A stretch of DNA of 38,500 bases from Bacteriovorax sp. BSW11_IV (lineage in GTDB: Bacteria > Bdellovibrionota > Bacteriovoracia > Bacteriovoracales > Bacteriovoracaceae): the NCBI RefSeq assembly GCF_000447755.1, contig NZ_AUNE01000046.1, forward strand, positions 1 to 38,500. Direction: 5' to 3'. Below, piece by piece: positions 1 through 27,613 of this stretch (position 1 is the stretch's first letter; each line of letters opens with the position of its first letter). Below the pieces are notes generated by a model. That model made no database searches, was not told the origin of the DNA, and saw only the letters and a program-made list of their open reading frames with translations. Made by a program: the position numbers and the translations under genes.

Positions 1-695
1 ATGATGTGTTTAACACCCTCTAGAATGATTTCATCTTTTGTATCCATCTGCTTTGAAATTTCTTCGAGATTTTCACCAATAGGAATAATAACTAAGTTTG
101 CAATGATTACTCCGTACAGAGTTGTAATAAGACAAACACCCATTGCTGGACCAATCATTTTCATGGCATCAGCACCACCAAGGTTTGCAAGAAGTACGAT
201 CATCCCAATAGTGGTTCCCATCATTCCAAATGCAGGAGGGAATTTTCCAAGAGATTTAATTTTTTTCGTATCATCACTTCTAAGCACACTCATCTTGCTT
301 GCTCTTTGCTCGAGGATCTGAATTACTTTTTCAGTTTCTAAAATTCCATCAGCAATAAGTTCCATCGCTTCTTTTAGAAAAGGATCTTGTGCTTTAGGAA
401 CAAGTGACTCCAAGCTTTCACCTGATCGATATGATTCACATATCTTCATGATGTCTTTGATGACATTTGAAGTATCAACCATTTTTCCTTTGAGAAATTG
501 CGTAAAGAATATTTTAAAGAGACCGCCAATTTTATTCAATTGAAATGCAACTGAAGTTGCAGCAAATGTTCCACCGAGAACGATGAACAAAGAAGGGCCA
601 TCGAAAAATATTTTTAAGTCTGAAGATGACAGTCTAAGACCAACGAAAAGAACTACACCTGAAATGATGAGTCCGATTAAAGAAAAAATATTCAT
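1..695 (-). CDS. motA: MotA-type flagellar motor stator protein, C-terminus cut by window edge
   Basis: This is the proton- or sodium-channel stator subunit that, with MotB, pushes on FliG in the flagellar switch. Reading the minus strand from an ATG at 695-693 gives about 231 residues before the window ends. The start MNIFSLIGLI is followed by a second hydrophobic segment (SLFIVLGGTFAATSVAF). A cytoplasmic helical region comes next, containing LKEAMELIADGILE. The typical PAFGMMGTTIGMIVLLANLG and LITTLYGVIIANLVIIPI membrane pair completes the visible part. GGAG lies 7 bases before the ATG. The missing C-terminus and a probable motB would be just left of the window. MotA and PomA are hard to separate by eye. 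It could serve the ordinary flagellum or another FliG-like rotor; the family call itself is secure. Confidence 0.9.
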   Translation of the reverse strand, partial: MNIFSLIGLIISGVVLFVGLRLSSSDLKIFFDGPSLFIVLGGTFAATSVAFQLNKIGGLFKIFFTQFLKGKMVDTSNVIKDIMKICESYRSGESLESLVPKAQDPFLKEAMELIADGILETEKVIQILEQRASKMSVLRSDDTKKIKSLGKFPPAFGMMGTTIGMIVLLANLGGADAMKMIGPAMGVCLITTLYGVIIANLVIIPIGENLEEISKQMDTKDEIILEGVKHI

Positions 696-5900: not shown

Positions 5901-8091
5901 TGGTGGAACATTTAAGGGATGTTTATTCAAACAAGGATCTCTTGCACAAACAAATGGTGGATCTACTCCTGCAGATGGAGATACTTATACAGATAGAGCA
6001 ACTTATAGAGTTGGTGATTGTATAGGAGAGTCCTTCTCTCAAGTCTATAATGAAACTTCTATTTGTCCTGATATTACAAAAGCAAATTACGACTATTTAA
6101 TGGTTCCAGGAATTGTTAATGGTTTGGGGCTAAATCAATGTCAGAACCCAAGTAATTTATTACCTAATATAAGTGATACCTATAATAATTCATTTTTGAC
6201 AGATGAGTCTGCTCAAAGTGAATACGGAGCTGTTTTTTATAACAGAGACTTCTATTCTACTAGTGAAAATTATGGACTGACTTCGATTAGAGGAGGAGGT
6301 GCAAATCCAGGTAATCCTCATCGTTTAAGAATGAATAATCAAGGTCGCTATCCTTCACGTTGTATGATTAACATTCCTGTTGCAGATAATTCTCCAGGGG
6401 GAAATGCTTTAATTAAACAACGCTGGATTCCTGCCAACATGTTGACTGACCTTGTTTATGATGGACTTACTAATAATAAGATTGATATTGCAACAGTTCC
6501 AATGAGTGTTGTTGAAAGTATGACTCAATTATTTGATAGTACTTTCAACTCTGTACCAAATGCTGGGTATAGAGCAAATTCAGCTCTTTATCGTTACGAT
6601 GAAAATAGCACACCTGTTGCAAGAATTGTATCGTCTAATGATGCAAAACTTCCTCCGATTAATGGTTTGAATCATGATCAGGCAGATGCCTTTTGTTCAA
6701 CATATACGGTTGAAGTTGGATCATTGAATGATTCAACAAACACATTTAGTGTCGAGGAAGGTGGTCTTAATAAACGAATGATGAGAAGAACAGAGGGGAT
6801 TGTAGCCTCAGCTTATCCAAAGACATTTAGTCTAACTGATATTAATAACCTTGAAAGAGGTGTGCGTACAGAAACGGGAACAGGGGCATCTGCAATCTTA
6901 TATAATGCAAGTTGTAATGCCTTTTCTCGAAGTATCTTGAATGGACAAACTCATAATGAGATTGAAGCAGGTCTTGGCATCTCTGTTCGTTTTGGTGACT
7001 TACAAAATAAGAGACATACAAATGATGGGGCCATCATTTTTAGTGGTTCAAGCTTTTTTGATCATGAAGGTAGTGACTATAGTACTCAATCTTGTGTAAG
7101 CCGCTATGGCCTCCAAGATATTGTTGGAAATATGAGAGAGTATAGTTCTGAGAGAATTTTTTGTAACTACGATGGAGAGGAATTTAAAATTGGGACAAGC
7201 TATCAGTCAGCGGATTCAATTGAATTTAATAATGGAGATCTATTCAATGCATCTTCATTCACTCCATGGGTACAAAGTTCACCAGATACTGGAAGATGCT
7301 CTTTAGTTGAGGCCGGAGGAGCTAGAGGAGCAACTTTCACTGCAGGAAGTTATATGGTTCCGCAGTATGATATGTTTGGTAATTTGAATTCGGCCATGAT
7401 TACTGCAACGAATACAATTGATGAATATAGTATTTCATACTTAAGAAATGGGGATGGATTCTATTTAGACTTTGGTCAAGATAATCTTGCTCCACCGTTG
7501 AGTATTAATGATACATTGGCCCTTACTGATGAGTATCCTGTAACAACTAGAAAAAGAGATGTGGGCGTTGATCCAAGAAGAGGAAAATATTTCAGCCCAA
7601 TTGCCGGGATTCCTCTAGAGTGCGCGAATGGAACTTGTTTAAATTCTACTGATAATTTAACGATATCCACAACTGGATTACAGGCAAAAATAGGAGCACC
7701 TGATACAGACTTTGTTGTTCCTCACTTTCCGATTACTAATAGCATGATTATCTCTGATGGGATGTCTGAGATTACTCAAAGTGGATCAACTACGATTAGT
7801 GCTACAAATTCTGTAAGTTATGACATTACATACTTGGATTCTATTGATCCGAAGGCCTACGTAACTCGATCGACAACTGATCCATTGGCCGAGGGAACTT
7901 TAGTTAGATGGGCCAATTGGAGAGTAACGAGAGATACTTATATGTATTTCGAAAATTTCGGAAGTAAGAGTAATGAGTCCCGTCCTGGACGCTATAGTGC
8001 GACAGTACTAGGAAGAAGTGAAGGTTTCCAAAAATCTGGAACTGAAGCTGGTGTTCGATGTGCAGTGAGAATTAATGAAGGGAGACCGTAA
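2917..8091 (+). CDS. Giant lipoprotein: Fn3 repeats plus FGE/C-type-lectin-fold C-terminal domain
   Basis: A 1724-aa lipoprotein with signal MKLFLSLIALSLLLSSC and lipidated Cys17. Residues 17 to about 640 match the whole upstream protein in order: CVGTVEDKNP at the start, and KVPTKEEFPG near 544 against KTPTQDEFPG in the neighbour. From about 955 onward the marks of the SUMF1/FGE-sulfatase fold appear in the right sequence. These are IDRFELGC near 960, DQADAFC near 1254, YGLQDIVGNMREY near 1397 and a closing GVRCAVRI near 1712. They correspond to the family's EVTN, DAxAFC, GLYDMxGNVWEW and GFRCA blocks. The enzyme's catalytic cysteine pair before the last block is not seen, so this is more likely a lectin-like or structural domain than an active oxidase. 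AGGA lies 7 bases before the ATG. The function, perhaps ligand binding at the cell surface, is inferred. Confidence 0.8.
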   Translation: MKLFLSLIALSLLLSSCVGTVEDKNPKLSKSAATGGEEIMFSGVNEVIPVSDDKVEVYFYPASGNVSDMTYQIFVNNTKVPIEVKGESLQLNQYGQYMYTVTGLKVFTQYSFSVGVRNAKENTESNSNKALFATTFPNYTADFGGVSKVYHSSGDLGKEQIEVEWVPAVSLGSSFSPKPNDPVAYEIRYMQADEGKPTDLLNPNHPAVKVSMKPTTLGSNPQLSQERKRSIPGLSPGKKYYVLVRAIHKAYVDYKTEPGYKTEQNNKILSVTTLSDSGLFDWDAASVKYETPIGEEALSRIDLRWDGALGPFKNYRVYYIKVGEATETYEDVAAKPDTLDSTTIDALNGTDDYQVAAADALSYQITGLSSYAYYKATVVACVTSGCADGSRIIGEEVFFRVTPKLAPFSGLLEIQDPTDINKLDEIEVKFDPPVTTAGYVNKFELYCFDNFDDNNPDELLYNIASTSSKPSCAGLTRITASPSDFSSYSSYSKIKIKGSFFGPNDVVSDKTYCFGAVPVIEGTNFVNRNLNSAIIRCKVVKIKVPTKEEFPGPANTCTVGADNISVTWDEPESGIYNRYEVFWKEDDGTPFSFQDAVNGLYNSQDNLTTLNFTINTLLPGKKYQYGVLTYVAGANKKYSEFNTGIRTCQIPLPTPKFGEWVDIFAVGPKANGLVPRRDNSAHGFEKAYLFETLNDNGQPIEVPVENYAGNNYSPTTEFENQFASVSSSVNFPGVYGKAQGDPDGIYMNQYSNSGIVRIAWKDITFNSNTKTMTDFVGTYETAALKKDRKYGYKVYRSDNGQKTWTELTSSSFAFQTPFNAGLLHAVDYAEAPRATDDAITPIKAVMFTDYSVKHAGLDGNSARARVYYYKVVPVFNGEELRYERENTNPQHIIKVTLPPENMALVHRLMANRQTCNEIGKSYSKDVSQHYTCTWNGVGARGLAVPWVPGATVYDFGSDLLIDRFELGCNFTRGDYQNINSAYSGPLSGFLGDSSGGGTFKGCLFKQGSLAQTNGGSTPADGDTYTDRATYRVGDCIGESFSQVYNETSICPDITKANYDYLMVPGIVNGLGLNQCQNPSNLLPNISDTYNNSFLTDESAQSEYGAVFYNRDFYSTSENYGLTSIRGGGANPGNPHRLRMNNQGRYPSRCMINIPVADNSPGGNALIKQRWIPANMLTDLVYDGLTNNKIDIATVPMSVVESMTQLFDSTFNSVPNAGYRANSALYRYDENSTPVARIVSSNDAKLPPINGLNHDQADAFCSTYTVEVGSLNDSTNTFSVEEGGLNKRMMRRTEGIVASAYPKTFSLTDINNLERGVRTETGTGASAILYNASCNAFSRSILNGQTHNEIEAGLGISVRFGDLQNKRHTNDGAIIFSGSSFFDHEGSDYSTQSCVSRYGLQDIVGNMREYSSERIFCNYDGEEFKIGTSYQSADSIEFNNGDLFNASSFTPWVQSSPDTGRCSLVEAGGARGATFTAGSYMVPQYDMFGNLNSAMITATNTIDEYSISYLRNGDGFYLDFGQDNLAPPLSINDTLALTDEYPVTTRKRDVGVDPRRGKYFSPIAGIPLECANGTCLNSTDNLTISTTGLQAKIGAPDTDFVVPHFPITNSMIISDGMSEITQSGSTTISATNSVSYDITYLDSIDPKAYVTRSTTDPLAEGTLVRWANWRVTRDTYMYFENFGSKSNESRPGRYSATVLGRSEGFQKSGTEAGVRCAVRINEGRP

Positions 8092-11000
8092 GTGAAACTT
8101 TCAAAGATTTTACTCTTGGTACTATCTTTTTCTTTGTTTGCCTGTAAGCCGGCCGATCAAGAAAAAGTTAAGGTCAAGACCGCAGGGATTTTTGAGCCCG
8201 TAGAGATTGAAGTACAAGGTGGATTGGACCGTGGGGAATTTCTCATTGGTTCTGATCCCGATGTTATTACAATCAGTGTTCAAAACAATTCAACCTTTCC
8301 TTTGACAGATTTAAATCTTGTCTTTGAAGAAGAGGAGTCTAATGCTGGAGTCAAGTTCAATCCGGATGAAGAAGGGAAGTCTGCTTCGCCAGGATACCTA
8401 GGGACATGTGCATCTAGGTTAGAAACTAAGCAAAAGTGTTATTTCAAGCTTTCTTATTCACCAACAATTAGTGGTAATTTAAAACAAATTATTTTTTTGA
8501 AATATAAAAACCTTGTGGATTCAAAACAGGAAACTTTTGAACTCACTATGTTTGCAGGAGAGGCCGCTTCATTAGTTTTTACGAGTGAACAAATTAACTA
8601 TTCTTTTGGTGTTATTGAAAGAAGTGATAGAGAAGTTTTTAAACAACGTCTTATTATCGAGAATGCTGGAGGTTTAACGGCAAAAGAAATGATTCTTGAT
8701 ATGATCAATAATCCTGTGAGTAATTCTTATCAAATTACGGAGAATACTTGCGGGAATGAATTAAAAGCAAAAGAGCGTTGTGAAATGGAAGTCATTTTTA
8801 CTCCAATGAACTGGGGTGATGGAGCTCCTGATGGAAATATCGATCAATACTATTATTCAAATATCTCAATTCCATATATTCGCGACCCATATGGTAAGAA
8901 ATCTGTTTTAAATGCATACTTCTCAGTAAAGTCATTTAACATTAAAGGGCTAATTAAGCATGCTGGTCTAGCCGTAATTAATTTTGATGACCTAATTGTA
9001 GGTAATTTTGCTTCCAAGCCATTTAAAATTAAAAACGAAGGTGATAAAGAAGCAATCCTACATTATATTGATATCAAAAATGCCGGTGGAGTAATTATTG
9101 GTAGCTGCGTGAAAGTCGCAGGTCAAGATTTGCTAGAATGTAGAGATCCCGCACAGATTGCTGTTGCGGGTGCGAGTGTTGCTTTGCCAACACTTCCTTT
9201 TAAAGTTCGTGATGTAAATAATTGTATTACACCTTATGATTCTTTGAATTATTCTAGAGATGCTGAAGGTGCCATTACTGATTCAAGTGTTATTGAAGTT
9301 GCGGGTGTCGTTGGCGATAGTCAGGGACAATCTTGTCTATTCGATTTGATCTTACATCCAAGTACAACTTTTGAGACGAGCGGTGATTTTTCTGGTTGGA
9401 CATTAACTTTCGTCTATGACTCAACTTGGAAAGGTTTCAGAGATATGATGGGTGTTGGTGGTCCTAGTAACTTTAATGTTGGAACAGCGAACTACTTTTC
9501 TGCTGCGAAAATCAATACTGCATTCTTTGAATATGCTGGAGATAACTCATATTCAAATTTAGATGCTGCCGATAATGGAATCTTTTCATATGATCTTGGG
9601 CGAGTTTCTCTAATTTCAGATGCGGCCTATAAGCAACAAGCAAAATTTCGTTTGAAGAATATGGGAGATAACGTAGCAGAAGTTTTATCAATTCGCGATG
9701 GTCAAAATTTTAATATTACTGATACATCTCAGAATATTAATAATTATTATTTGAGTGCAAGTCATTCTGGTTGCGCCTTTGTTTCTCCTAAAGGAGGAGA
9801 GTGTGATGTGCGCTTTCAAATTGCACCAGTTGCAAGCTCGAACCCCGATGGTATTTTGGCAAAGGCCGAAGAAGATGCTCAAATGTTTGACGATGTTCCA
9901 ACTGAAACCAAAAAGTTTTATATAGAGTATAAAGATGGAACTACTTATAACGATGATCTAACTTTAAGAACTAATCGCATTGTTGAAGTTAAAATGAAAG
10001 CGAAGCTTGTTAGAAAAGGTTTCTTAGTTTTTGAAGATACAAGTTCGAATCAAGGTGTTATTCCTTCGAACAAAATTGCAGGAAATACTGAATACTTTCA
10101 TGTCAAATTAAAAAACGTAGGAACAGGTCCTATACCTTATATTGAAGCTGTAAATGGTAAGATGATGGTACGTCCTAATAATAATGCTTACCCATTCGAA
10201 ATTGTCGATAGGCCGGGACCTGCTTCAGGAGCATCAAAAGATTGTTATGAACTTATCAATTTTACGCCTGCAAATCATCCGATCTCAACTACTCCGTACT
10301 TAGGACAATTACAACCTGGAGAGAATTGTACGTTGTCTGTAAGAATGAAACTTCGTTCAACAGATATTTATGCTTTTAGTCTCTATTCTGAAGAGACTTC
10401 TCCAGAGTGGGAGAGGAAGTTCTCGGTTGCGAAAAATGGAACTTCGGAGGCATGGGAGTATTATAATTATAATGGTTCTGACCAGCTTCTTTCATTTAAA
10501 TACTATGATGGTGATGGTGTCTCGGATCCTGCTAACGGGTATTATCCAACACTTGAAAATTATGGAAATTTCCACACCATTAGTGGTGGAACAAATGGTG
10601 ATTATCGCGTAAATATTAAGTTTGTATCTGAAGGATATATCGTACCTACAAACCCATTTCCAAGTTTAATTGCTATTTTATATCGTCAACCTGTATCTCT
10701 TCCATTCTTGCCAGTAGATGGTTGGGGAGATTCTGTCGCCATGAAAAGTGTTCCACTTAAATGGCGTGATATCTCAAAATTAACAGGAGCAATTCCTGCT
10801 ACATTTTTCTCTACTGCGATTACTCATACAGCATCATTAATGTCCACGACTCATACAACTGATTATGCTTATCATGGTGGTACTTACCCAACAGGTGGCT
10901 CATATACGGGAGCAATAACTCTTTCAAGAAAAGGGGCCAATATAAATACAGGTTCAATTAATATGATTGCTAATAATGGCGATCCAGAAATTGGTGTGAC

Positions 11001-13002
11001 GCTGGCCCCTGACAAAGGGAGTTTACAGTTGGCCTTTAATCCAACAAATGCCGGAGTTTATACAAAAGAAGTTACCATTCAGTATTTTGGTGGGAGAAAA
11101 ACTCTTGATGAGAATACTTTAGTGTATAGCAATACTAACTCTACAATTTCAATTAAGCTTTTCTTTGAGGCCACTGATGAGAATAAAACAATCTCATTGG
11201 GATCACAGGCCTATACAGTTTATTACGATACAGGAACTGAATCAGTCATTGAAACTTTGGATGGCGCGACTGAAAGTTATTCACTTGATGTTATGAAAAT
11301 GGTTCCCAATCAAACGGGGAATTTAAAGGCGATCAAAGGTTCTGAAGTTTATGCGAAAAAGAGATTTGTTGTTACAAACACAAGTCCTTACCCAATTAAT
11401 CGTGTCGATGCCATGATTAAAAGAACTCTAGACTCTTCAACTGTTGAAAACAGTGCCGGTGGATTAGGCTATTCATTAACTTCTAATACTTGTAGCAACA
11501 AGGCCCTACTGTCTGGGGAAAATTGTTACATTGATGTTAAGCTCAAGGCCTCAACTTCTGAGCCAGATTTATCAACTAGAATATTAGCTGTAACGTATGA
11601 AATTGCTGATAAGCAGTATCTCATATCTGCAATTAATCTGAACTTCCAGGCAGCAAGCCCTGCCAAGGTTAAAGTTGCAGGGGTTAACTCCGAGAGTATC
11701 AATAATGAGCTTGGTGGTGTTATCCAAGGCTCTTATCCTGTTAAGTTTGGATATTATCAAGATACGCTTCACCCGGTTCTCAATGATTCTCCTTTTCAAG
11801 AAATGTTGGTGCAAAATATTGTTCTAACTAATAACGTTGTTGAAAAAGCAAGTTTTCTTCATCAATACAGAACTTATGTTGGGAATATGAATGCAGTATT
11901 GCCAGCTGGTGCTTATGTCACAATGTATGATGATGGTGAAAATACTGTGTCTGCAACGAGAGCTTGTTTCTACGGAGACAATGAAGGCGGACCACTTCCA
12001 TCTGATGAGTGGGGCTTTAATCAGGACTCAGCATCCCCTTGTGTTTTAAAAGTATTGAAGAAATTTAATGATGACTTTATTGCACAAAAACTTCCTGCTG
12101 CATTTAACTATGTGAAGTTAACATTCTATAATAGTGGAAGATCATCAGTGGATAATCTCTATCTTCACTTTCAAGGTTTTGTGGAGCCCAATAGATCGAA
12201 TTCGACTGGTGATATTATGAATGTTGTTGCTACAGATGAAGGAGATCTTTCATTCTCATGGAACGACTATACTCCATCAAATCCAGGTTGGGGAGCAATT
12301 ACAGGTTATAGAGTTTTCTACAGTGCAACGAAAACAGCATTGAATAATCTGTTTGAAACATCAGCGAGTTTCACTGATACAACATCACCAGAAGTAGTTC
12401 TTAGTGGACTTGTTCCATCTCGTTACTATTATATTCGTATTGCCGCGAAGAGATTGTCTCCTGGTGGATCGACTTATCTATCTATTAGTAACATGACAAC
12501 TAGAGAAGTCGTCATACCTCCTCAAGATATGTTCTATGATTACGATCTTAAAGTTGTTGTCGATACGTATATTAGTCCTAAGAATAGTCCATTGTTTGGA
12601 ACTAAGAGTGAAGTGGTAACTGGTTGTGATAAAGAGATTTCAAACGTTGTTAAAAATGGCGCCATGATTCAGAAAAGAAAGAAGCTCGTAAACTCAACAG
12701 TTTTTGACGTTATAAAGAGTGATCCTTCTTTGAGTAATTATACTTATCAGGTTGTACCGCATTGGATGAGTGATCCTGTAACTGACATTGCTCCGATCTT
12801 TGCTCCAGTGTTTAACTGTTCTGAGACGACCGGGAATACACCAGATCTGATGACTTTTTATATGAAGAGTTGTTCTGATTGTAGTTGTAATCAATTGTCT
12901 AAGATCGATGGCGGGGATGGTGAGAACTTACCTCCATCAGCACTTTTCTACGTAGACGCTAACGCTTCAAGTGCTGCCCAGAGATGCTACTTTACTCAGT
13001 AA
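8092..13002 (+). CDS. Giant choice-of-anchor/Fn3 lipoprotein
   Basis: A 1636-aa lipoprotein starting at a GTG that directly follows the upstream stop codon, with AAGGGAG about 7 bases before it. The signal MKLSKILLLVLSFSLFAC places the lipidated cysteine at residue 18. The body holds repeated beta-sandwich modules. Several end in a Cys, then a turn rich in K, G or E, then Cys and an alternating strand: for example CASRLETKQKCYFKLSYSP near 106 and CSNKALLSGENCYIDVKL near 1136. This is the pattern of choice-of-anchor D/ASH (Hydin-like) repeats. A clear Fn3 module sits near residues 1375-1470 (GYRVFYSA, YYYIRIAAK). The C-terminus carries a cysteine cluster, SCSDCSC. No enzyme motif is visible. 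It is the third gene of the lipoprotein operon; a shared cell-surface role is inferred. Confidence 0.78.
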   Translation: MKLSKILLLVLSFSLFACKPADQEKVKVKTAGIFEPVEIEVQGGLDRGEFLIGSDPDVITISVQNNSTFPLTDLNLVFEEEESNAGVKFNPDEEGKSASPGYLGTCASRLETKQKCYFKLSYSPTISGNLKQIIFLKYKNLVDSKQETFELTMFAGEAASLVFTSEQINYSFGVIERSDREVFKQRLIIENAGGLTAKEMILDMINNPVSNSYQITENTCGNELKAKERCEMEVIFTPMNWGDGAPDGNIDQYYYSNISIPYIRDPYGKKSVLNAYFSVKSFNIKGLIKHAGLAVINFDDLIVGNFASKPFKIKNEGDKEAILHYIDIKNAGGVIIGSCVKVAGQDLLECRDPAQIAVAGASVALPTLPFKVRDVNNCITPYDSLNYSRDAEGAITDSSVIEVAGVVGDSQGQSCLFDLILHPSTTFETSGDFSGWTLTFVYDSTWKGFRDMMGVGGPSNFNVGTANYFSAAKINTAFFEYAGDNSYSNLDAADNGIFSYDLGRVSLISDAAYKQQAKFRLKNMGDNVAEVLSIRDGQNFNITDTSQNINNYYLSASHSGCAFVSPKGGECDVRFQIAPVASSNPDGILAKAEEDAQMFDDVPTETKKFYIEYKDGTTYNDDLTLRTNRIVEVKMKAKLVRKGFLVFEDTSSNQGVIPSNKIAGNTEYFHVKLKNVGTGPIPYIEAVNGKMMVRPNNNAYPFEIVDRPGPASGASKDCYELINFTPANHPISTTPYLGQLQPGENCTLSVRMKLRSTDIYAFSLYSEETSPEWERKFSVAKNGTSEAWEYYNYNGSDQLLSFKYYDGDGVSDPANGYYPTLENYGNFHTISGGTNGDYRVNIKFVSEGYIVPTNPFPSLIAILYRQPVSLPFLPVDGWGDSVAMKSVPLKWRDISKLTGAIPATFFSTAITHTASLMSTTHTTDYAYHGGTYPTGGSYTGAITLSRKGANINTGSINMIANNGDPEIGVTLAPDKGSLQLAFNPTNAGVYTKEVTIQYFGGRKTLDENTLVYSNTNSTISIKLFFEATDENKTISLGSQAYTVYYDTGTESVIETLDGATESYSLDVMKMVPNQTGNLKAIKGSEVYAKKRFVVTNTSPYPINRVDAMIKRTLDSSTVENSAGGLGYSLTSNTCSNKALLSGENCYIDVKLKASTSEPDLSTRILAVTYEIADKQYLISAINLNFQAASPAKVKVAGVNSESINNELGGVIQGSYPVKFGYYQDTLHPVLNDSPFQEMLVQNIVLTNNVVEKASFLHQYRTYVGNMNAVLPAGAYVTMYDDGENTVSATRACFYGDNEGGPLPSDEWGFNQDSASPCVLKVLKKFNDDFIAQKLPAAFNYVKLTFYNSGRSSVDNLYLHFQGFVEPNRSNSTGDIMNVVATDEGDLSFSWNDYTPSNPGWGAITGYRVFYSATKTALNNLFETSASFTDTTSPEVVLSGLVPSRYYYIRIAAKRLSPGGSTYLSISNMTTREVVIPPQDMFYDYDLKVVVDTYISPKNSPLFGTKSEVVTGCDKEISNVVKNGAMIQKRKKLVNSTVFDVIKSDPSLSNYTYQVVPHWMSDPVTDIAPIFAPVFNCSETTGNTPDLMTFYMKSCSDCSCNQLSKIDGGDGENLPPSALFYVDANASSAAQRCYFTQ

Positions 13003-13355
13003 TTAACGAGTATATTAGACACCGTTTTAAGTAAGAGTGGTTTATTAACTGGCTTACTTAAAATGGTGTACTTTTCACTGCAAATATCATCACCATCTAA
13101 GGCCGTAAGATGAATTATGGGGATACTGGGAAGCTTCTCATGAATCTTATTACCAAATCTAAGGCCATTTTCTTTATTTAGTCTTACGTCCATTAATATT
13201 AAAGAAGGAATATCGTTTTCGTGAAAAATTATATCTTCAAATTCACGCTCTGATATAAACCACTTCACACTATAGTCAAAATTTTGCTCAATAATTTTTT
13301 TTAAGAATAAACAAAAATCCTTATCATCATCTAAAATCCATATCTGTTTTTTCAT
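12996..13355 (-). CDS. Single-domain response regulator (CheY-like receiver)
   Basis: A 119-aa stand-alone receiver domain with no output domain. The expected residues are present: acidic pocket Asp9-Asp10, phospho-acceptor Asp56 in LILMDVRL, switch Thr84 in HLTAL and Lys101-Pro102 in LSKPV. GGAG lies 6 bases before the ATG. Its stop overlaps the stop of the giant lipoprotein gene by 7 bases, tail to tail, and its start faces the six-gene operon. No histidine kinase of normal form is in the window, although the protein at 15559-17136 looks like a degraded one. It could act as a CheY-like protein on a rotor or switch, or as a phosphorelay intermediate. The domain is certain; the partner is not known. 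Confidence 0.88.
   Translation of the reverse strand: MKKQIWILDDDKDFCLFLKKIIEQNFDYSVKWFISEREFEDIIFHENDIPSLILMDVRLNKENGLRFGNKIHEKLPSIPIIHLTALDGDDICSEKYTILSKPVNKPLLLKTVSNILVNY
13019..13069 (+). terminator. Long inverted repeat, probable 3' end of the lipoprotein operon
   Basis: Positions 13019-13035 pair with 13053-13069 over 17 base pairs (16 Watson-Crick and one G-U) around a 17-base loop. The element begins 17 bases after the giant lipoprotein stop and is followed by ACTTTTC, a short U-run. It lies entirely inside the C-terminal coding part of the convergent receiver gene. The one imperfect pair is G-U in plus-strand RNA but C-A in minus-strand RNA, so pairing favours the plus transcript. 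Confidence 0.5.
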
Positions 13356-13472: not shown

Positions 13473-13507
13473 ATTAATTGAATATTGTGATTGTTAAGAT
13501 TCTTCAT

Positions 13508-14968
13508 ATGAGAAGCGCTCTAATACTCGTCATATTCATGTTTTCATTTTTCACTTTCGCAAATGAAAGTTCATCAACTACTTCAAATGAAATTCAAAAC
13601 TCAGAAAAAAAATCTGATCAAAAAGTAGATGAAAAGCAGGAAAAAAAAGAAGAAGAAATCATTGAAAAGAAAATGATCACCTTCGACATCACAAAGTTAA
13701 AAGACATGTCGATGAATGAAGTTTCTTTTATTCGAAAAAGTATTGTTGAGGCCGTATTTGCTGCAAAGATTTTTGAAATAACATTCGGTCATGTTGATAG
13801 CAAAATTGGAAAAAACAAAACATGGTATGAAATTAGCGTGTCACATAAAAGAGAAGACAACGGTCTTAGTCATATTGAATTTTATTTTAAAGAGAAGCCT
13901 TCAAATCAATTGATTAATTACATCTCAGAAAGAAATTTACCCAAGGCCAAAGTTCAGTATCGTTCAAGAGTTTTAGTTTACAAACTGATGTTTGGAAAAT
14001 GGTTTGATGAAAAATCTGGAAAATTAATTAAGCCAGAGGTTATCAATATTAAAAATACTGTCTCTGAAAAAGAAACAGAGAATGAATCAGTAAATGAAAT
14101 CAATTCAGAACAAGAACAATTACAAGAAGAAGAGAGCGTAGATGACTTTTCGGAGTCAGGAATAAAGAAGAGTAAAAAAGACGCAAAAGAAGAAGAGAAA
14201 AAAGAAGATAAAAAAGTAAGTGCAGCGAAAAAACGAAAAGTTGAGATACAAAAATACGATGCGCCTAATTTGAATTTAGAGAAGGCAAAAGTAGAACAGA
14301 AAGTGAAGATAGAACCGGGACTCAAGTGGATGTCCCGTTTTGATTATGCGATAGGGTATCAGCAAGAAGCGGCGACTTCTAATATCGCCGTTACTAAAAA
14401 TGAATTCTTAGAAACTGAAACAAGTGTAGAACGTCTTGTTCTCAAATTTTCAACTAGCTTTAGAGTAGAACAGTGGATACAGCACTTCCATACAGGTGGA
14501 GTAATCTCCAGATCAATGTCTGAAGAAGAATATAAAATCAAACCACGAATAAATTTGTTTGGAAATTTTAATTATGATCTTTGGTCAAGTTCACTCTTTA
14601 TCGGATTAAACGTTGAGTATGATCGACTTGGCTTCATTACTGCTCCAGAGCGTGGGGGAGGGTTAAAGTCTATCACGAGTAATATCCTTTGGACTGGAAT
14701 TGGCATCAGATATATCGATAGCTTCAAAAATCATCTTGTCGCTTTTGAGGGAGATATTAAAAGAGCATTGATTGCAAATGCCGATCTTGTAGATGAAGCG
14801 GAAAGCGTGCCCTTAGATGGTAATAAATTACATCTACAAGGAAGAGTTTCTTTATACCAAGGATGGGGAATAGGTCTGAGTTATGAAATGATCAGCCTGT
14901 CTTCTGTTTCAAGCTTGAATTTAGATAATACGCACTCCATTTATGGATTGTACCTGACATACAACTAG
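13508..14968 (+). CDS. Periplasmic/outer-membrane protein with charged linkers and a C-terminal beta-barrel
   Basis: First gene of the six-gene operon; family not recognised. From the ATG at 13508 it has 486 residues. The signal peptide is MRSALILVIFMFSFFTFA. A Lys/Glu-rich stretch occupies about 20-55, and a small alpha/beta domain about 56-165, ending in YKLMFGKWFDEKSGKLI. A second charged linker runs from about 185 to 250. From about 270 to the end there are alternating strands with aromatic girdles (RFDYAIGY, NFNYDLWSSSLFIGLNVEY, YGLYLTYN), typical of an outer-membrane barrel. In-frame TTG (13478) and GTG (13487) starts exist, but neither has a ribosome site at normal distance; I chose the ATG because it gives a compact signal peptide. 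The low-complexity linkers could span the periplasm or bind peptidoglycan, which is inference. Confidence 0.72.
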   Translation: MRSALILVIFMFSFFTFANESSSTTSNEIQNSEKKSDQKVDEKQEKKEEEIIEKKMITFDITKLKDMSMNEVSFIRKSIVEAVFAAKIFEITFGHVDSKIGKNKTWYEISVSHKREDNGLSHIEFYFKEKPSNQLINYISERNLPKAKVQYRSRVLVYKLMFGKWFDEKSGKLIKPEVINIKNTVSEKETENESVNEINSEQEQLQEEESVDDFSESGIKKSKKDAKEEEKKEDKKVSAAKKRKVEIQKYDAPNLNLEKAKVEQKVKIEPGLKWMSRFDYAIGYQQEAATSNIAVTKNEFLETETSVERLVLKFSTSFRVEQWIQHFHTGGVISRSMSEEEYKIKPRINLFGNFNYDLWSSSLFIGLNVEYDRLGFITAPERGGGLKSITSNILWTGIGIRYIDSFKNHLVAFEGDIKRALIANADLVDEAESVPLDGNKLHLQGRVSLYQGWGIGLSYEMISLSSVSSLNLDNTHSIYGLYLTYN

Positions 14969-14978
14969 GTTGGTAAAT

Positions 14979-15575
14979 ATGGGTCTTAAAAATAAGTATG
15001 ATGAAATTTTTGAAACACTTGGGGCGAGTAGAACCGTTGTTGAAGATGAGATTGTTTACTACGGTAGTTATGCCAAAGATACAATTGCGACAAGTGATTT
15101 AGAGTTATTATCAAATGATATTAAGAAAAGATTTGCTAAACCTTTTGAAGGCGCACAGGCGAAACTGCAAATTGATATTTCAACATGTGTAGAAAAAATA
15201 AACGTAGCAAAGATTATGAATACGTTAGATTTTCTTTTGAAAACATTTAGCCGCTTTATTTTGATTAGTAAAAAGTTTACTCCGACAATAAAAGTGAGTG
15301 TAAATAATTCTACACTAAGCTTGAGAGTCGTTTCTGCAAAGGTTGAAAAAAAGTTATTTGATGTTTCACGCATTCAAGACCTTTTAGTACAGGAAAAAAA
15401 GAACTTTATGTCTGTATCTGGAAGCAAAATTAAAGCAACTGTAGATTTTAACGAAAAAAGAGAAGAGATGATCTTTTATTCAGAAACGAATCTAATGAAT
15501 GAAAGTAAGTTGAAAGTGAAAAATAAGAAAAAACAATTGCATTCAAGTGGAAGGACCAATGAAAGAAGTTTGTAA
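14979..15575 (+). CDS. Small cytoplasmic protein, possible degenerate ATPase-like fold
   Basis: About 198 residues, with no signal peptide or membrane span; not recognised. The ATG at 14979 has AGG 9 bases upstream, whereas the in-frame TTG at 14970 is too close to any ribosome site. Predicted order by eye: an N-terminal helix, a strand (KLQIDIS, 62-68), a helix (INVAKIMNTLDFLLKTFSRF, 74-93), then paired strands (TIKVSVNN, TLSLRVVSAK, 103-121). This order resembles the core of histidine-kinase ATPase domains without the nucleotide-binding N, D and G boxes. It shares that pattern with the C-terminus of the next protein. The C-terminal tail is rich in lysine. The last 17 bases overlap the next gene, indicating translational coupling. 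Confidence 0.7.
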   Translation: MGLKNKYDEIFETLGASRTVVEDEIVYYGSYAKDTIATSDLELLSNDIKKRFAKPFEGAQAKLQIDISTCVEKINVAKIMNTLDFLLKTFSRFILISKKFTPTIKVSVNNSTLSLRVVSAKVEKKLFDVSRIQDLLVQEKKNFMSVSGSKIKATVDFNEKREEMIFYSETNLMNESKLKVKNKKKQLHSSGRTNERSL

Positions 15576-17136
15576 AATCGCATTTAAATACATTTTAGTG
15601 GCGATGCTTACCTCAAATGTTAGTTTTGCTAACTGGGAAGTTGATGGGTTTAAAAAACTCGGAACGAATTCATTAGAATCAACTTCAAAAACATACACTG
15701 AGCTTCTAGGGAGCTTAGAGAAAAATGGTGTTGAGAACAAGAAGATTCAAGACAAAATCAAAACACTAAATTCAAGAATGTCAGTTGTATTTAATGAGTC
15801 AAAGAGTTTACTTGAACACATTTATACTTCTTTGAAAAAAGATGGAAACTTAGAGGCCATTTTAGCAAAAAGATATTTAGATTGGGCAAATAGTAGAACA
15901 GGTGCTGCCGATCTGAAAATGTTAAATACTCTTGAAGGTTACTTAGGACATCTTGAAAGGGAAATTGTTCAAAGCAATAGAATGTCTACAACTATTAAAG
16001 TGGAGTTCATGCAAAGCTTTCGAGGAATTGTTAATAAGATCAATGAAGCTCGCAAACTTGATGTGGCCGTCCGTGGAGATTTCGCTGTGGCCCTAGAGGC
16101 ATCTTTGAAAACAAGAGTTGCCAACACAATGAAATCAGTAAAGGCCGATACAATTAAGAAATTGGAAGATAATAGTACTAGAAATATTTTTGTCGTAACA
16201 GCGGCAGGGCTTGTTGTATTGCTCGCTGGAGTTATGATTCGCAATCGACGCTTGAAAAAGAAAAATGCTGAGCTAGAAAATCAAGATTGGGGTCCGTATA
16301 TCAGAAGAAAAACTATCGAAGGACAGAAAAAGGCCTACGAAAGTTTAAAAGATATTGGTGTGGCCATGGTTGAGTCCAATGGTGAAATCTCATACGGTAA
16401 TGCTCTTTTTAGTGAAATGTTTAAAGACACGTTTACAAAGAAGCAAAAATGGGAAGATTTCTTTGGTAAAAATTTCAAGCGCGAGAAAACATTAAAAGGA
16501 GTTCACTCTCTTTATAAGTATCTTGGTGACGTTACTAGTGATTACGTTGTTCAAGTTTCTCGTCCGAATGAACATGGAAAAAGAGCATGTTTCTTTGTTC
16601 GCTTTGACTCTACAGTTCTAGCAAAAATTGGTAGTGAGAGAGTTGCGACATTAGAAAAGATGAAAGTGAATGTCTTAGATATTCTTGATGATATTATTTC
16701 CAGAGAAAGTTCATTAAGAGGTAGTCAGTATATTGAATTTGCTGAAGTTGATTACGCAAATGATCTTTATGTTTATATGCCAGAGGATCATGCAAAGGCC
16801 ATTCTTGAAAAATCTCTAAAGGCCGTATTTTCGATTCAAAGCCTTAAGAAGAATACACGCAGAGCAATTCTTAACGTAAAAAGAAAAGATAAGTGCCTTG
16901 TGGTAAGTGCAGAACTTCCTGGTATTCACCTCGATGTTAAGGATTTCTCTCAGAAAATTATTGGGGATCAAACTTTGAGCAATATCATGCGCGAAGTAGA
17001 GCATTCAAATAGAAATTTTGAAATCACGACAGTTGTTAAAAACGTAAAAGTGAACGGTGAAAGAGCTGTATCATTTGAATTACTTGTTTCTGACCTGGAA
17101 AATGTAAAGGTAGAACAAAGGGAATTCTCGCTGTGA
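15559..17136 (+). CDS. One-span membrane protein: periplasmic helices, PAS-like and degenerate kinase-like cytoplasmic part
   Basis: 525 residues from the ATG at 15559, which has GGAAGGA about 3 bases upstream. A GTG at 15547 would only lengthen the signal peptide. Signal peptide about 1-24 (ending NVSFA), helical periplasmic region 25-205, membrane span about 210-227 (FVVTAAGLVVLLAGVMI), a basic RNRRLKKK stop-transfer, then a cytoplasmic part. Residues about 255-350 look PAS-like (IGVAMVESNGEISYGNALF). Residues about 360-490 follow the order of a kinase dimerisation helix and ATPase fold, with a N-box-like helix (HAKAILEKSLKAVF) and AELPGIHLDV where DxGxGI would be. The catalytic His, Asn and glycines are missing. 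The layout is that of a sensor kinase that has lost catalysis; it might be a structural or signalling subunit of the complex. The functional reading is inference. Confidence 0.75.
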   Translation: MKEVCKIAFKYILVAMLTSNVSFANWEVDGFKKLGTNSLESTSKTYTELLGSLEKNGVENKKIQDKIKTLNSRMSVVFNESKSLLEHIYTSLKKDGNLEAILAKRYLDWANSRTGAADLKMLNTLEGYLGHLEREIVQSNRMSTTIKVEFMQSFRGIVNKINEARKLDVAVRGDFAVALEASLKTRVANTMKSVKADTIKKLEDNSTRNIFVVTAAGLVVLLAGVMIRNRRLKKKNAELENQDWGPYIRRKTIEGQKKAYESLKDIGVAMVESNGEISYGNALFSEMFKDTFTKKQKWEDFFGKNFKREKTLKGVHSLYKYLGDVTSDYVVQVSRPNEHGKRACFFVRFDSTVLAKIGSERVATLEKMKVNVLDILDDIISRESSLRGSQYIEFAEVDYANDLYVYMPEDHAKAILEKSLKAVFSIQSLKKNTRRAILNVKRKDKCLVVSAELPGIHLDVKDFSQKIIGDQTLSNIMREVEHSNRNFEITTVVKNVKVNGERAVSFELLVSDLENVKVEQREFSL

Positions 17137-17756
17137 GAAAAACTTTAGCATTACTCATATTTATGAGCTCGAATGTGTTTGCTGCGGGAAACGGCTTTCA
17201 CGATGTTGTTAGTTTTAATATGGGAATGATTAGCCATTCTGTAACTGAGAATGAGAGTACACTTATTCAAACAGATGATAGTGTGCAAACTGAAGATACT
17301 TCTGCAGTGGCCGCGAGCTCAGCTGTATCAGCAATTAGTTTTAACCTTAATTGGGAATTTAAAACTGAACAAAAGAAATCATATTTTGTGCAGGCTTTTG
17401 TTCCAATGATGACTACCGGTGGTGCTGGTGTCTTCTTGGGTGGGGTTGGAATGAACTGGTATCTCAATGATATGGGTTCAAAATACACATATGTTCAAAA
17501 TGGAACAGAACTAACAATTATCCCTAAATTCAAATACTACTGGGGTGCCAGTACTGGAATTGGGTATGTTGTTTACAACACCGAATCAGCGAAGAAAAGT
17601 GATGTTTTCTTCGATTTAGGTGTTCATGGTGGCGGTGTGTACGGAATTGGTACGAACAGAGGAATTAAATTAGAAGTTGGTGCAAGTCGCGCTACAGGTG
17701 TGGCCACAACTGGAATAAAAATCGGATTCTTTTTAGGAATGACTCAATATTTATGA
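17133..17756 (+). CDS. Small outer-membrane beta-barrel-like protein
   Basis: 207 residues. The GTG start overlaps the upstream stop by 4 bases, with AAAGGGA about 10 bases before it. Signal peptide MRKTLALLIFMSSNVFAAG. The mature part shows repeated amphipathic strands separated by Gly/Asn turns: SAISFNLNWEFKT, SYFVQAFVPMM, VFLGGVGMNWYLN, ELTIIPKFKYYWGASTGIGY, GIKIGFFLGMTQYL. This is what a barrel of about eight strands looks like. It does not end in the usual aromatic residue, so a periplasmic beta-protein is possible. The family is not recognised. Overlap on both sides shows it belongs to the six-gene operon and is likely made together with its neighbours. Confidence 0.72.
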   Translation: MRKTLALLIFMSSNVFAAGNGFHDVVSFNMGMISHSVTENESTLIQTDDSVQTEDTSAVAASSAVSAISFNLNWEFKTEQKKSYFVQAFVPMMTTGGAGVFLGGVGMNWYLNDMGSKYTYVQNGTELTIIPKFKYYWGASTGIGYVVYNTESAKKSDVFFDLGVHGGGVYGIGTNRGIKLEVGASRATGVATTGIKIGFFLGMTQYL

Positions 17757-18364
17757 AAATTTTAACTTTTTTACTTTCTACATTTGTTGCTCTTGGTGCT
17801 TTTGCATCTGAGTTTAATATTAATAGTAATCCAAGTGATTGTGATGTTTTTATTATCGGTGAAAATGGTAAAAAGAATGCCGTTGGTAAAACTCCGTATA
17901 AAGGAAACTTGGAAAGCTTGAAATCAACGTATGGTTTGACTGGTACGATGCAAGTCGAGGTGTATAAACCAGGTTTTGAAGCATTTAATATTTCAGTGCC
18001 TCTCATTAGCAGCTCTGCAGTAAATTTAAATGCCAATTTAGAAGTAGAAAAAGATATTAAACTTACTCAAGATGTTGATCTTCTTGTAACGGATCTTTTT
18101 GATGTACTGAGAATGATGAGAATTAAAGATTTTTCATCAGCTTTTGCAAAATTGGATAAGCTAGAGGCAAAGTTTCCTCAATACTCAATCATTTATGAGA
18201 TGAAAGGATCAATCTCGTATATGCAAAAAGAGTTTAAAAAAGCATTAAATTACTACAGAAAAGCTTTCGGTATTAATCCGAAAAATAGAGAAGCATATAA
18301 GATGAAAGTTTATCTTGAGAAGAAGTTTCAAGTTGCTGGCGATGTTACTGGAGGTAACGGGTGA
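17753..18364 (+). CDS. Periplasmic PEGA-domain/TPR protein
   Basis: 203 residues. The ATG overlaps the upstream stop (ATGA), the classic sign of coupling. Signal peptide 1-19 (MKILTFLLSTFVALGAFAS). Residues about 20-95 match the PEGA surface-layer type domain: FNINSNPSDCDVFI, then GKTPYKGNL, then VEVYKPGFEAF. Residues about 110-183 form two or so tetratricopeptide-like helical hairpins (KDFSSAFAKLDKLEAKFPQY; the second has the typical ALNYYRKAFGINPKN). PEGA domains are small periplasmic or surface beta-modules, and TPRs are protein-docking platforms. In this operon it is a plausible bridge between the outer-membrane barrels and the inner-membrane components. The domain call is good; the bridging role is inferred. 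Confidence 0.8.
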   Translation: MKILTFLLSTFVALGAFASEFNINSNPSDCDVFIIGENGKKNAVGKTPYKGNLESLKSTYGLTGTMQVEVYKPGFEAFNISVPLISSSAVNLNANLEVEKDIKLTQDVDLLVTDLFDVLRMMRIKDFSSAFAKLDKLEAKFPQYSIIYEMKGSISYMQKEFKKALNYYRKAFGINPKNREAYKMKVYLEKKFQVAGDVTGGNG

Positions 18365-20508
18365 GAAGAACGAATATATTCATTATTCTATCCATTTTCA
18401 TTTTTGGACAAATTTCATCTTTGGCCGAAATTGGAAATCTTCCAAGTCTAGAGTGGCAAAAGCAAGGTCTTGAAGACAAAATCAACGGTAAAGTTGAATC
18501 TCTTTTGCTTTCTATCTTAAAAAGAGATCAATTCAGTGTAGATGTTGAAATTGTATCGAATAATCCTGCTGATCCAGAATTTAATAAACCTCTTGATGCA
18601 AATGGGAAGAAAAAGGGCACTGGTATTGGCCCTAATGGTGAAGTAGAACTTTCTGAAGAAGAAAAAGCAAAGATTGAAGAAGAAAAGAAATTAGAAGAAG
18701 CAAAAAAGTCGAATGCTGCTATTAAATTCTCTGATGTAGAACCTGATGCAAATACAGGTGATCATATCGTATTTTCTAAATTTGGTATGGAAGCTCCTCT
18801 TATTGATGATTTTAAAGATTTTCAACCTGATGGGAAAATCTTTTTAACAATGGAAAATGATAACGATAAGAAGAAACTTGAAGAGTTGAAAGAAAAATTC
18901 AACGAAAAAGAAAAGCAATATCAAGAACGAATTAAAAAACTTCAATATGAAAAAAGCCAATCAGAAGGGCAAGTCTCTCCAGTTGAACAGATGTGGAAGT
19001 ATAACAACACAATTGATATTTTCAAAAATCTTAAAGAAGTGAATATTCTTGTTCGTTTAAGTGAAGGCCTAGATGAACCAGTTAAGAAGAAAATTGAAAA
19101 ATATGTTCGTGATCTTAGATTTAACTTAGGTTCCATTGAGCCATCTATCAAATTTGAGTACTCAATTCTTGGTAATGATATTAATCAACCAACGAAAATG
19201 GATAAGATGAAAGAGTGGCTAGAATACGCAAGTAAATATGCAACTCTATTTGGTATTGTTATTGGAACTATTCTCTTTGGTCTCATTGCAAATGGTCTAG
19301 TTAAGAAATACTTTGAACTTAATACAGGTGTTTCTAACACAGGTAATTTCAAAATGGATGGTGGGGCAGACCAAAAAGATTCTGCCAAAGAAGAAGGACT
19401 TCCTGCACTTCCTGGCGGATTTGATGCTGGAGAAATGGCCGTTGCTGGCCTTAACGGAATTGAGAGATTTAAGTTCTATATTAAGAATACACCGAATGAT
19501 GCCATCATGCTTGTTAAGAAATGGGTGCGTGGAGATGAAAAAGGATCTGATTCAGCTCTTAGGGCCCTTGTACAACAGATGGAGAACGATGAACTTAAAA
19601 TTATTTTTGGTTCATTATCTGAGAATGAGAGAACTCACTGGCGCAACTTGCTAGATAAGCCACTTCATGGTCCTGAGCTTTCTCGTGCTAATGACTTTAT
19701 TAGTAATCAGATTGTTCAAAGTGTTATTGTTCCTTCGACAATTGATGATCCTGAAACATACGATCTAATTCTGAAGTTAACTCCAGAAAAAGTCGTGGCC
19801 ATGGTTCAAGCAGATCCGAAAATGTCTGCCATCTTAATGAACGCATTAAGCTTGTCATTTGTTAACGAAGTTTTATCGAAATGTCCTGAGAATATTAGAG
19901 ATACTATTATTAATAAGTCTGTTGAAGTTAAAGCTAAAGATGTTGTTGCTGCTCAGGGCACATTAAAATCTCTTCTAGCGAAGTATGTTGAAACTGTTGA
20001 GGAGAAACCATTTGTTGAAAAATTATTGAAATTGATTCCAATGACAACTCCAGATCTTGAAGAGTCTCTATTTAAGGCCCTTGCTAGAAATATTAATGCC
20101 GATGTCTTGAAAACTACGGCATTATCAAATTTTCCTGCGGCCCTTATTTCAGAGTTGCCAGTACCATTTTTGAAATCAGTACTGTCTTCTTACCCATTGG
20201 AGAAAAAAGTTAAAATGCTTCTTTCTGTTGATGAAGAGATTAGAACAATTTTTATGGAAATCTTTGCACCAGAAGGTTCCAAGGCCAATGATCTTATTAT
20301 GATTGAATTTGAGTCATATGAGCGCGATGAAAGTGAAATGGATAAAATCACTGAAAATGCATCTAAATACTGGCACGACTTTGTTCTTTATACTCGAAAT
20401 GAGATTAATAAAGATAAGACATATTCTAAAGAGATTTCAGATCTTCTGGAAACTTGGAGTCAGGATATGGAAGTCACGAAGAAAAATCATTTACGCGAAG
20501 TCGCTTAA
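18361..20508 (+). CDS. FliF C-terminal-like/FliG-like fused inner-membrane protein
   Basis: 715 residues. The GTG start overlaps the upstream stop by 4 bases. Order: signal peptide about 1-22; LEDKINGKVESLLLSILKRD (37-56) and SVDVEIVSN, resembling the first half of the FliF C-terminal periplasmic domain; a charged coiled-coil linker (about 95-205); then VNILVRLSEGLDEPVKKKIE (227-246) plus IEPSIKFEYSIL, resembling its second half. A membrane span follows at about 292-313. Residues 369-390 (RFKFYIKNTPNDAIMLVKKW) match the FliG-binding tail of FliF (NPxxxAxLLRxWL type). The remaining 320 residues are helical repeats resembling FliG middle and C-terminal domains (TPEKVVAMVQADPKMSAI, SFVNEVLSKCPENIRDTI). 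FliF's usual ring-building modules and first span are absent, so it is not a normal MS-ring protein. Its place at the end of an envelope operon suggests a ring-like inner-membrane base. The assignment is by pattern, without a search. Confidence 0.72.
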   Translation: MRRTNIFIILSIFIFGQISSLAEIGNLPSLEWQKQGLEDKINGKVESLLLSILKRDQFSVDVEIVSNNPADPEFNKPLDANGKKKGTGIGPNGEVELSEEEKAKIEEEKKLEEAKKSNAAIKFSDVEPDANTGDHIVFSKFGMEAPLIDDFKDFQPDGKIFLTMENDNDKKKLEELKEKFNEKEKQYQERIKKLQYEKSQSEGQVSPVEQMWKYNNTIDIFKNLKEVNILVRLSEGLDEPVKKKIEKYVRDLRFNLGSIEPSIKFEYSILGNDINQPTKMDKMKEWLEYASKYATLFGIVIGTILFGLIANGLVKKYFELNTGVSNTGNFKMDGGADQKDSAKEEGLPALPGGFDAGEMAVAGLNGIERFKFYIKNTPNDAIMLVKKWVRGDEKGSDSALRALVQQMENDELKIIFGSLSENERTHWRNLLDKPLHGPELSRANDFISNQIVQSVIVPSTIDDPETYDLILKLTPEKVVAMVQADPKMSAILMNALSLSFVNEVLSKCPENIRDTIINKSVEVKAKDVVAAQGTLKSLLAKYVETVEEKPFVEKLLKLIPMTTPDLEESLFKALARNINADVLKTTALSNFPAALISELPVPFLKSVLSSYPLEKKVKMLLSVDEEIRTIFMEIFAPEGSKANDLIMIEFESYERDESEMDKITENASKYWHDFVLYTRNEINKDKTYSKEISDLLETWSQDMEVTKKNHLREVA

Positions 20509-24465: not shown

Positions 24466-24515
24466 GATTTAAGTCATAGTAGTTAAAAGATTATTTTTCG
24501 CTAGGAGAGTGGTAC

Positions 24516-27599: not shown

Positions 27600-27613
27600 A
27601 AAAGGTTTTGAGC

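Follow-up and report, generated by a model that had tools for sequence, protein, structure and literature searches.

The locus described here raises the question of what a protein that joins parts of two flagellar rotor components in a single chain does outside a flagellar operon. It lies in a stretch of 38,500 nucleotides from Bacteriovorax sp. BSW11_IV (assembly GCF_000447755.1, contig NZ_AUNE01000046.1, positions 1 to 38,500 of the forward strand), and "the window" refers below to this whole stretch. A sequence-only reading had proposed a natural FliF-FliG-like fusion encoded in an operon of envelope proteins. Profile, fold and neighbourhood analyses bear this out: the protein is such a fusion and has the respective folds, its gene is linked to genes for a MotA/MotB stator and for envelope proteins, and fusions of this kind exist without a flagellum. 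The best explanation, to which we assign a probability of roughly 0.62, is that the fusion is the rotor of a second, MotAB-powered and flagellum-independent motor coupled to outer-membrane proteins and surface lipoproteins. The fusion gene and its parts, with residue numbers of the protein, are:

18361..20508, + strand: FliFG, the FliF(RBM3)-FliG-like fusion, 715 amino acids (profile search, AlphaFold2, Foldseek, VIA-align)
18361..18432, + strand: signal peptide, residues 1-24 (hydropathy stretch 4-25; model helix 2-25)
18433..18558, + strand: first half of the RBM3-like domain, residues 25-66 (FliF RBM3 fold match; profile match of 38-83 to FliF)
18559..19029, + strand: insert in the RBM3-like domain, residues 67-223 (model; same place as the insert of FliF itself as described in the consulted part of PMC4768692)
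19030..19173, + strand: second half of the RBM3-like domain, residues 224-271 (fold match)
19231..19305, + strand: membrane span, residues 291-315 (hydropathy; model helix 294-321)
19456..19530, + strand: FliF-tail-like segment, residues 366-390 (conserved in the family; weak FliF-tail match)
19531..20454, + strand: FliG-like N/M/C helical repeats, residues 391-698 (profile, Foldseek, VIA-align)
20275..20313, + strand: segment aligned with the FliG torque helix, residues 639-651, with K641 and E649 conserved

The open reading frame (ORF) starts with GTG and overlaps the preceding stop codon by 4 bp. Its product has an N-terminal hydrophobic stretch and a single further hydrophobic span, in agreement with the signal peptide and the one membrane span claimed before. 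Searched as a single sequence against Pfam, NCBIfam and the PDB, the protein gave weak matches only (MgtE_N 0.0015, FliG 0.027). A profile of 30 full-length members of its family (alignment A1), searched against 177,635 PDB sequences at expectation values (E) up to 10, gave seven matches: FliG 3ajc (2.3e-6), FliF 8z5s (0.14), FliG 5tdy (0.26), FliF 9yh6 (0.29), stomatin (0.3), FliF 9ydx (0.99) and cytochrome bd (2.7). FliF and FliG, which are partners in the flagellum, make up five of the seven and appear in the correct order along the chain; judged from the sequence profiles, these matches taken as a set are well above chance. Comparisons by hhalign with the FliF of relatives (probability 25%, P 7.8e-4 over 38 columns) and with FliG (66% and 54%) are suggestive, although not decisive alone.

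An AlphaFold2 model of the fusion, built from the 30-row alignment, has a mean predicted local distance difference test score (pLDDT) of 74.6, with means of 84-92 across residues 31-70, the last block excepted. Its predicted template modelling score (pTM) is 0.32, so that only single domains are usable and their arrangement is unreliable. In structural alignments with VIA-align, residues 25-271 matched FliF RBM3 rings best (8zdt, Z 10.8, 101 residues aligned, root-mean-square deviation 3.9), and residues 391-698 matched FliG (8wiw, Z 10.4) and its C-domain (1qc7, Z 10.1, 89 residues aligned, root-mean-square deviation 2.3). The injectisome-type protein EscJ (1yj7) aligned with Z 7.7. With Foldseek, FliG or C-ring chains filled the first 12 places (best E 1.3e-4). 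Z scores of about 8-13 can be generic according to the notes of VIA-align itself; the fold matches nevertheless carry weight, because the two halves, taken one by one, lead to two proteins in direct contact within the flagellum and because the sequence profiles agree. The periplasmic half thus corresponds to the split FliF C-terminal-like domain that had been proposed, its RBM3 fold being interrupted by the insert at residues 67-223, and the cytoplasmic half contains about 300 residues of FliG-like repeats, for which the sequence-only reading had given about 320. Had the FliF and FliG assignments been wrong, missing profile matches and unlike folds would be expected; instead, 3ajc is matched at 2.3e-6 and both the RBM3 and the FliG fold are found.

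Three further claims of the sequence-only reading hold in part. The insert had been called a coiled coil, and a helix is indeed predicted at residues 169-201, but the remainder of the insert has low confidence. For the proposed FliG-binding tail at residues 369-390, conservation within the family (G366 in 27/30 members, R369 in 28/30, K386 in 28/30, W388 in 29/30) and the order of the parts fit, but taken by itself the segment matches the FliF tail weakly (hhalign P 0.041, i-Evalue about 800). Finally, the protein was said to lack the ring-building modules of FliF. RBM1, RBM2 and the first membrane helix of FliF are absent, the signal peptide running directly into RBM3 with no YscJ_FliF Pfam match in the fusion, but RBM3 is itself a ring-building motif.

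The family is not confined to the window. A search of 143 related genomes found matches in 32, and one named relative is a Bacteriovoracaceae metagenome-assembled genome. The neighbourhood counts given below for the window-protein family were taken over 33 loci. Across the phylum, the A1 profile matched in 75 of 368 genomes at E 1e-6 or better; among genomes at least 90% complete, it matched in 51 of 234. The weakest A1 matches (about 1e-7 to 1e-10) probably belong to a second fusion family of 20 loci, which was reached via FliG_M matches outside the flagellar locus and one FliF_C match. This second family is wider than that of the window protein (loci L096-L115, for example L098:1750-4050 on the + strand). 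Some of its proteins, 18 of which form alignment A2, exceed Pfam cut-offs (FliG_C up to 1.2e-16, FliG_M up to 7.1e-10), and some match the A1 profile (up to 4.9e-11). The model of the L098 protein (766 amino acids, pLDDT 69.3) contains two tandem RBM3-like domains, a membrane span and FliG, with fold matches to FliG (Z 14.4) and, twice in tandem, to FliF RBM3 (Z about 10); FliG bound to MotAB (8ucs_H) is matched with Z 12.8. A canonical FliF hidden Markov model found no match in the second family at E 1, the RBM domains being visible by fold alone. With some members above the FliG cut-offs and some matching A1, this family bridges the window protein to true FliG. Short reading frames of 169-194 amino acids with FliG_M matches (E 3e-13 to 3e-21) lie away from fliG in four genomes (G011:C124, G025:C9, G039:C102, G045:C58) and are perhaps stand-alone FliG middle domains.

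This bridge bears on the possibility that the likeness to FliF and FliG is a chance resemblance of helical repeats, for example of the MgtE_N type. MgtE_N weakly matches 21 of the 30 family members and beats FliG in single-sequence Pfam scans, and OsmC/MamM-type folds are also among the matches; we took MgtE_N and OsmC/MamM as generic for both folds. However, MgtE_N spans only about 40 residues of the window protein, whereas profile searches, Foldseek and VIA-align all name FliG for the M and C parts and FliF for the periplasmic part, and two separate halves match two physically adjacent flagellar partners. With a bridging family above the FliG cut-offs in addition, chance likeness is hardly credible, and the fusion and its homology to FliF and FliG are close to certain.

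Is the fusion simply the flagellar protein of this bacterium? On contig C45 of the same genome there is an ordinary fliF (E 3.2e-35) with fliG (E 1.9e-25) behind it; a flagellar-type motA-motB pair (on C6) and FlhA are encoded as well. The fusion is therefore not the flagellar protein. Moreover, YscJ_FliF_C, FliG_M and FHIPEP (FlhA) are all without a match in genome G075 (94% complete), which nevertheless encodes two fusions (L129 and L143), each with MotA, MotB and a PEGA-TPR protein nearby; two MotB are present. Genome G109 (89% complete), likewise without FliF_C and FlhA, carries a second-family fusion beside MotA and MotB.

The association with MotA and MotB is seen in the window itself, the start of which cuts a motA gene:

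1..695, - strand: motA of the module, 231 amino acids, cut by the contig start (Pfam MotA_ExbB 3.1e-18)
C18:27727-28455, - strand: motB at the end of contig C18 (MotB_plug 1.5e-14, OmpA 4.6e-9)

On C18, the reading frame preceding motB matches the last MotA residues of the nearest relative (G000:C18:27727-28557 region), and about three MotA residues would be missing between the two contigs. The ends of the window contig and C18 share no exact overlap. That they adjoin is deduced from the motA tail and from the same gene order in six relatives, not from assembly, and the missing motA tail and motB are thus probably those at the end of C18. Around the 33 family loci, MotA was found near 27, of which 21 were in the first fetch and six appeared after upstream extension; in all six, motB-motA diverges from fn3 lipoprotein genes exactly as in the window. 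The other six loci (L119, L122, L125, L128, L131, L146) are without MotA, a contig end truncating each of them on one or both sides, and extension of L146 on its open side still revealed none. In the second family, MotA occurred in 16 and MotB in 17 of the 20 loci in the first fetch, and one or the other is close to all 20 once extended regions and coordinates are included: among the four loci without a first-fetch MotA, L109 has MotB, L100 and L115 have both within a few kb, and L105 has MotA about 4 kb away by coordinates. As the genomes of the matching relatives, about 2-5 Mb in size, each contain one to six MotA-like matches, arithmetic from these genome-wide counts predicts a MotA within a 37-kb stretch by chance in a few percent of cases. 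Three loci (L100 and L171 in G126, L105 in G142) are in single-contig genomes, with fusion and MotA genes within a few kb; an ORF beside them resembles, by eye, a HAMP-SpoIIE-type phosphatase. Further MotA-MotB pairs occur at L219, L221, L222 and L223 (genomes G028, G042 and G018), three of the four adjoining PEGA-TPR. ORFs of about 290-580 amino acids lie beside these pairs, and three of the four match the second-family profile (6e-7 to 1e-14), which suggests that some genomes carry several such modules.

The module proteins have the domains of a MotAB stator, namely MotA_ExbB, MotB plug and OmpA (66.2, 53.7 and 36.9 bits), and the channel Asp motif of MotB is present in 36/36 sequences. They share these domains, the conserved prolines and, mostly, R90 with the MotAB stator as described in the consulted part of PMC12505986. 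We compared the module MotAs with flagellar ones in a tree whose flagellar set comprised the 29 fetched loci nearest to the genome's own flagellar MotA, that MotA itself and E. coli MotA; more divergent flagellar MotAs are outside this sample. The 31 flagellar rows grouped together with a weak value of 78 in the Shimodaira-Hasegawa-like approximate likelihood ratio test (SH-aLRT), which is the support at the key split, and the E. coli branch is very long; 26 of the 27 module MotAs of the window family grouped together with SH-aLRT 90. The MotAs adjoining fusion genes are a group separate from the flagellar MotAs of the relatives. A functional pairing of the fusion with the linked MotAB is highly likely.

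These data also bear on the idea that the fusion serves the flagellum after all, as an accessory or alternative rotor or as a ring that recruits stators. The core parts all have flagellar homologues, flagella are present in most carriers, and the three MotAB pairs of Bdellovibrio are all counted as flagellar in the consulted parts of PMC11323537 and PMC12827227. Such a role is difficult to reconcile with the two copies kept in G075, which lacks FliF, FliG and FlhA, and with the separate grouping of the module MotAs. Gene clustering of the 33 neighbourhoods, in which not all single-copy neighbours were scanned with Pfam, recognised no export-gate, rod, hook or filament gene. A flagellar accessory function therefore appears very unlikely.

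The FliG-like part was also compared with FliG at the contacts to the switch and to the stator. EHPQ, which we take to be the FliM-binding motif of FliG, is present in 47 of 48 FliG sequences but in none of the 30 window-family and none of the 18 second-family fusions, and this loss fits a rotor without a FliM/FliN switch. In E. coli, torque pairs are formed by MotA R90 with FliG D288-D289 and by MotA E98 with FliG R281 (as given in the consulted part of PMC12505986; positions checked on the K-12 sequences). The R90 column contains Arg in 30/30 flagellar rows and in 22/27 module rows, with Lys in one more; the E98 column is acidic in 18/27 module rows, and in flagellar rows a Glu stands two columns beyond it (30/30). 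On the rotor side, K641 is found in 27/30 fusions, and E649 (27 Glu and 3 Asp of 30) aligns with FliG D289 in all three alignment modes. Within the window-protein family, the aligned residues thus suggest interface charges that are largely kept on both sides. The linked MotA/MotB, the lost FliM-docking motif, the retention of the fusion without a flagellum and the second fusion family all go beyond the sequence-only reading.

What the motor might act on is suggested by the genes upstream of the fusion:

17753..18364, + strand: PEGA-TPR protein with signal peptide, the immediate upstream neighbour of the fusion
17133..17756, + strand: predicted outer-membrane-type protein of 207 amino acids (signal peptide, barrel by eye; no Pfam match)
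15547..17136, + strand: protein of 529 amino acids with a membrane span at 211-233 (hydropathy)
14970..15575, + strand: protein of 201 amino acids without a membrane span
13478..14968, + strand: exported protein of 496 amino acids with a barrel-like C-terminal half (by eye)
8092..13002, + strand: large lipoprotein with choice-of-anchor-D and fn3 matches (lipobox by eye)
2917..8091, + strand: large fn3 lipoprotein (lipobox by eye)
1014..2915, + strand: fn3 lipoprotein (lipobox by eye)

PEGA-TPR is the most constant neighbour, being present in 32 of 33 neighbourhoods and, in 31 of these 32, separated from the fusion gene downstream of it by -30 to +60 bp. The 207-amino-acid barrel-like protein is present in 28/33 loci and the 496-amino-acid exported protein in 15/33, and the first fetch contained choice-of-anchor lipoproteins in 10/33 and fn3 lipoproteins in 11/33. 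The 529-amino-acid protein is perhaps sensory, as the protein at its place in L121 has a weak PAS match (PAS_7 0.018). In the second family, TPR proteins of a different cluster occur in 13/20 loci and a small protein is often nearby, which in L098 is a cyclic-nucleotide-binding domain (9.8e-18). An ORF of 119 amino acids (12996-13355, - strand) that by eye is like a response-regulator receiver domain sits between two operon genes on the opposite strand, and relatives of this ORF occur near some other loci. Downstream of the fusion (23335-28474, + strand), the N-termini of three ORFs look prepilin-like by eye; two of these ORFs are long (376 and 1027 amino acids).

In the proposed mechanism, the RBM3-like domain probably forms a ring at the periplasmic side of the inner membrane, since RBM3 makes the FliF ring and since FliF and FliG, when fused by engineering, give rings in a foreign host (according to the consulted part of PMC6079021). 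The cytoplasmic FliG-like half would form a ring beneath the membrane, and the linked MotA/MotB would act as the stator, ion flow turning or pushing the FliG-like ring via the charged interface residues. The module itself would not switch. The periplasmic part, PEGA-TPR and the barrel-like proteins might relay force to the outer membrane and the large surface lipoproteins, which is a guess. True rotation of the fusion is somewhat favoured. The likeliest use would be surface movement, either gliding, the most speculative step, or prey handling; we propose such a role tentatively and regard it as rather doubtful.

Alternatively, the fusion may be a ring-shaped scaffold that gathers MotA/MotB and anchors or gates them without spinning, so that force passes directly to envelope proteins as in Tol/Exb/Agl-like systems. 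No rod or shaft protein was recognised in the module, and TPR proteins stand beside the stators. Several observations agree with a scaffold or otherwise weigh against a rotor coupled to the cell surface. K641 aligns with FliG R281 in only two of three alignment modes, and the position equivalent to FliG 288 is mostly hydrophobic. In the second family the torque charges are not kept: its MotAs have R90 in 4/19 and an acidic E98 column in 4/19, and on the rotor side the R281 position is mixed and the charges are not conserved. Genome G032 (L218, G032:C49; 99% complete, without a flagellum) retains MotA/MotB, and no fusion was found in it. The pTM values of the models are low (0.32 and 0.29), and the evidence for a surface role consists of lipoboxes and domain names. 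However, the stator-touching C-terminal fold of FliG is kept in both families (including the second-family match to MotAB-bound FliG), and in the window family the interface charges are largely kept on both sides. We thus consider a scaffold unlikely and prefer the rotor. The neighbours of MotA/MotB in G032 resemble those in G075, and a large fn3 lipoprotein then follows.

Compared with flagellar FliF and FliG, the window protein shares the RBM3 fold, interrupted by an insert in the corresponding position and followed by one membrane span, as well as the FliG-like N/M/C repeats and an order of parts as where the FliF tail meets FliG. It differs in being one chain without RBM1/RBM2, the first membrane helix and EHPQ, encoded outside a flagellar operon, and identity in the fold alignments is only about 15%. 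A natural FliF-FliG fusion is already known from Chlamydia (PMC4768692, here and below as far as its consulted part describes it). Like the window protein, it joins a shortened FliF to FliG-related sequence outside a flagellum; in contrast, it has about 330 amino acids, lacks part of the SctJ region and the SpoIIIAG-like domain, which is the RBM3 of later papers, and is joined to FliG M. The window protein is not of this type, as RBM3 and FliG C are both present. The Chlamydia fusion was suggested to work with the injectisome, and that part of the paper mentions no stator. By analogy, the window fusion could be a remnant or part of a type III secretion system, a view to which the same general architecture and the occurrence of RBM domains in SctJ (see the EscJ match above) lend some support. 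However, it is linked to MotA/MotB and lipoproteins rather than to recognised export genes, and G075 has no FlhA-family gene, which makes a secretion function highly improbable. The engineered Salmonella fusion also is a fused chain and assembles rings in non-motile hosts, but it is artificial and contains full-length FliF and FliG (consulted part of PMC6079021). The Agl-Glt gliding motor of Myxococcus and other TolQR-class systems resemble the module in combining TPR, barrel and surface proteins with a stator pair driven by ions; in the part of the review consulted (PMC13104615) no FliF/FliG-like rotor is mentioned for them, and FliF and FliG occur zero times in its main text. No Glt name was among the NCBIfam matches of the window neighbours, no search for Glt families having been made in the genome.

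Literature searches, covering open-licence papers without preprints, brought up no account of a MotAB-linked FliF-FliG fusion rotor. To our knowledge, the rotor-stator engine of the flagellum has hitherto been described as a component of flagella. What looks new here is thus this engine outside any flagellum, whereas the natural FliF-FliG fusion itself was known before. A 2025 survey, in the part consulted, reported that 11% of non-motile species have one or more rotor proteins while lacking a filament protein, and considered another function possible (PMC12199754). Should the module work as a motor, the engine would have been taken out of the flagellum and put to new use without export gate, rod or filament, and a one-protein rotor would then be available for studying torque generation. 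More broadly, and at slightly less than even odds, the Bdellovibrionota may possess their own family of flagellum-free rotary motors, which would combine a one-chain rotor (one or two RBM3-like domains and a FliG ring) with dedicated MotAB and with TPR and barrel couplers to surface lipoproteins. Such a motor could be what these predators use for gliding or prey handling; some MotAB genes that are counted as flagellar stators in predatory bacteria would then belong to it and may need re-assignment.

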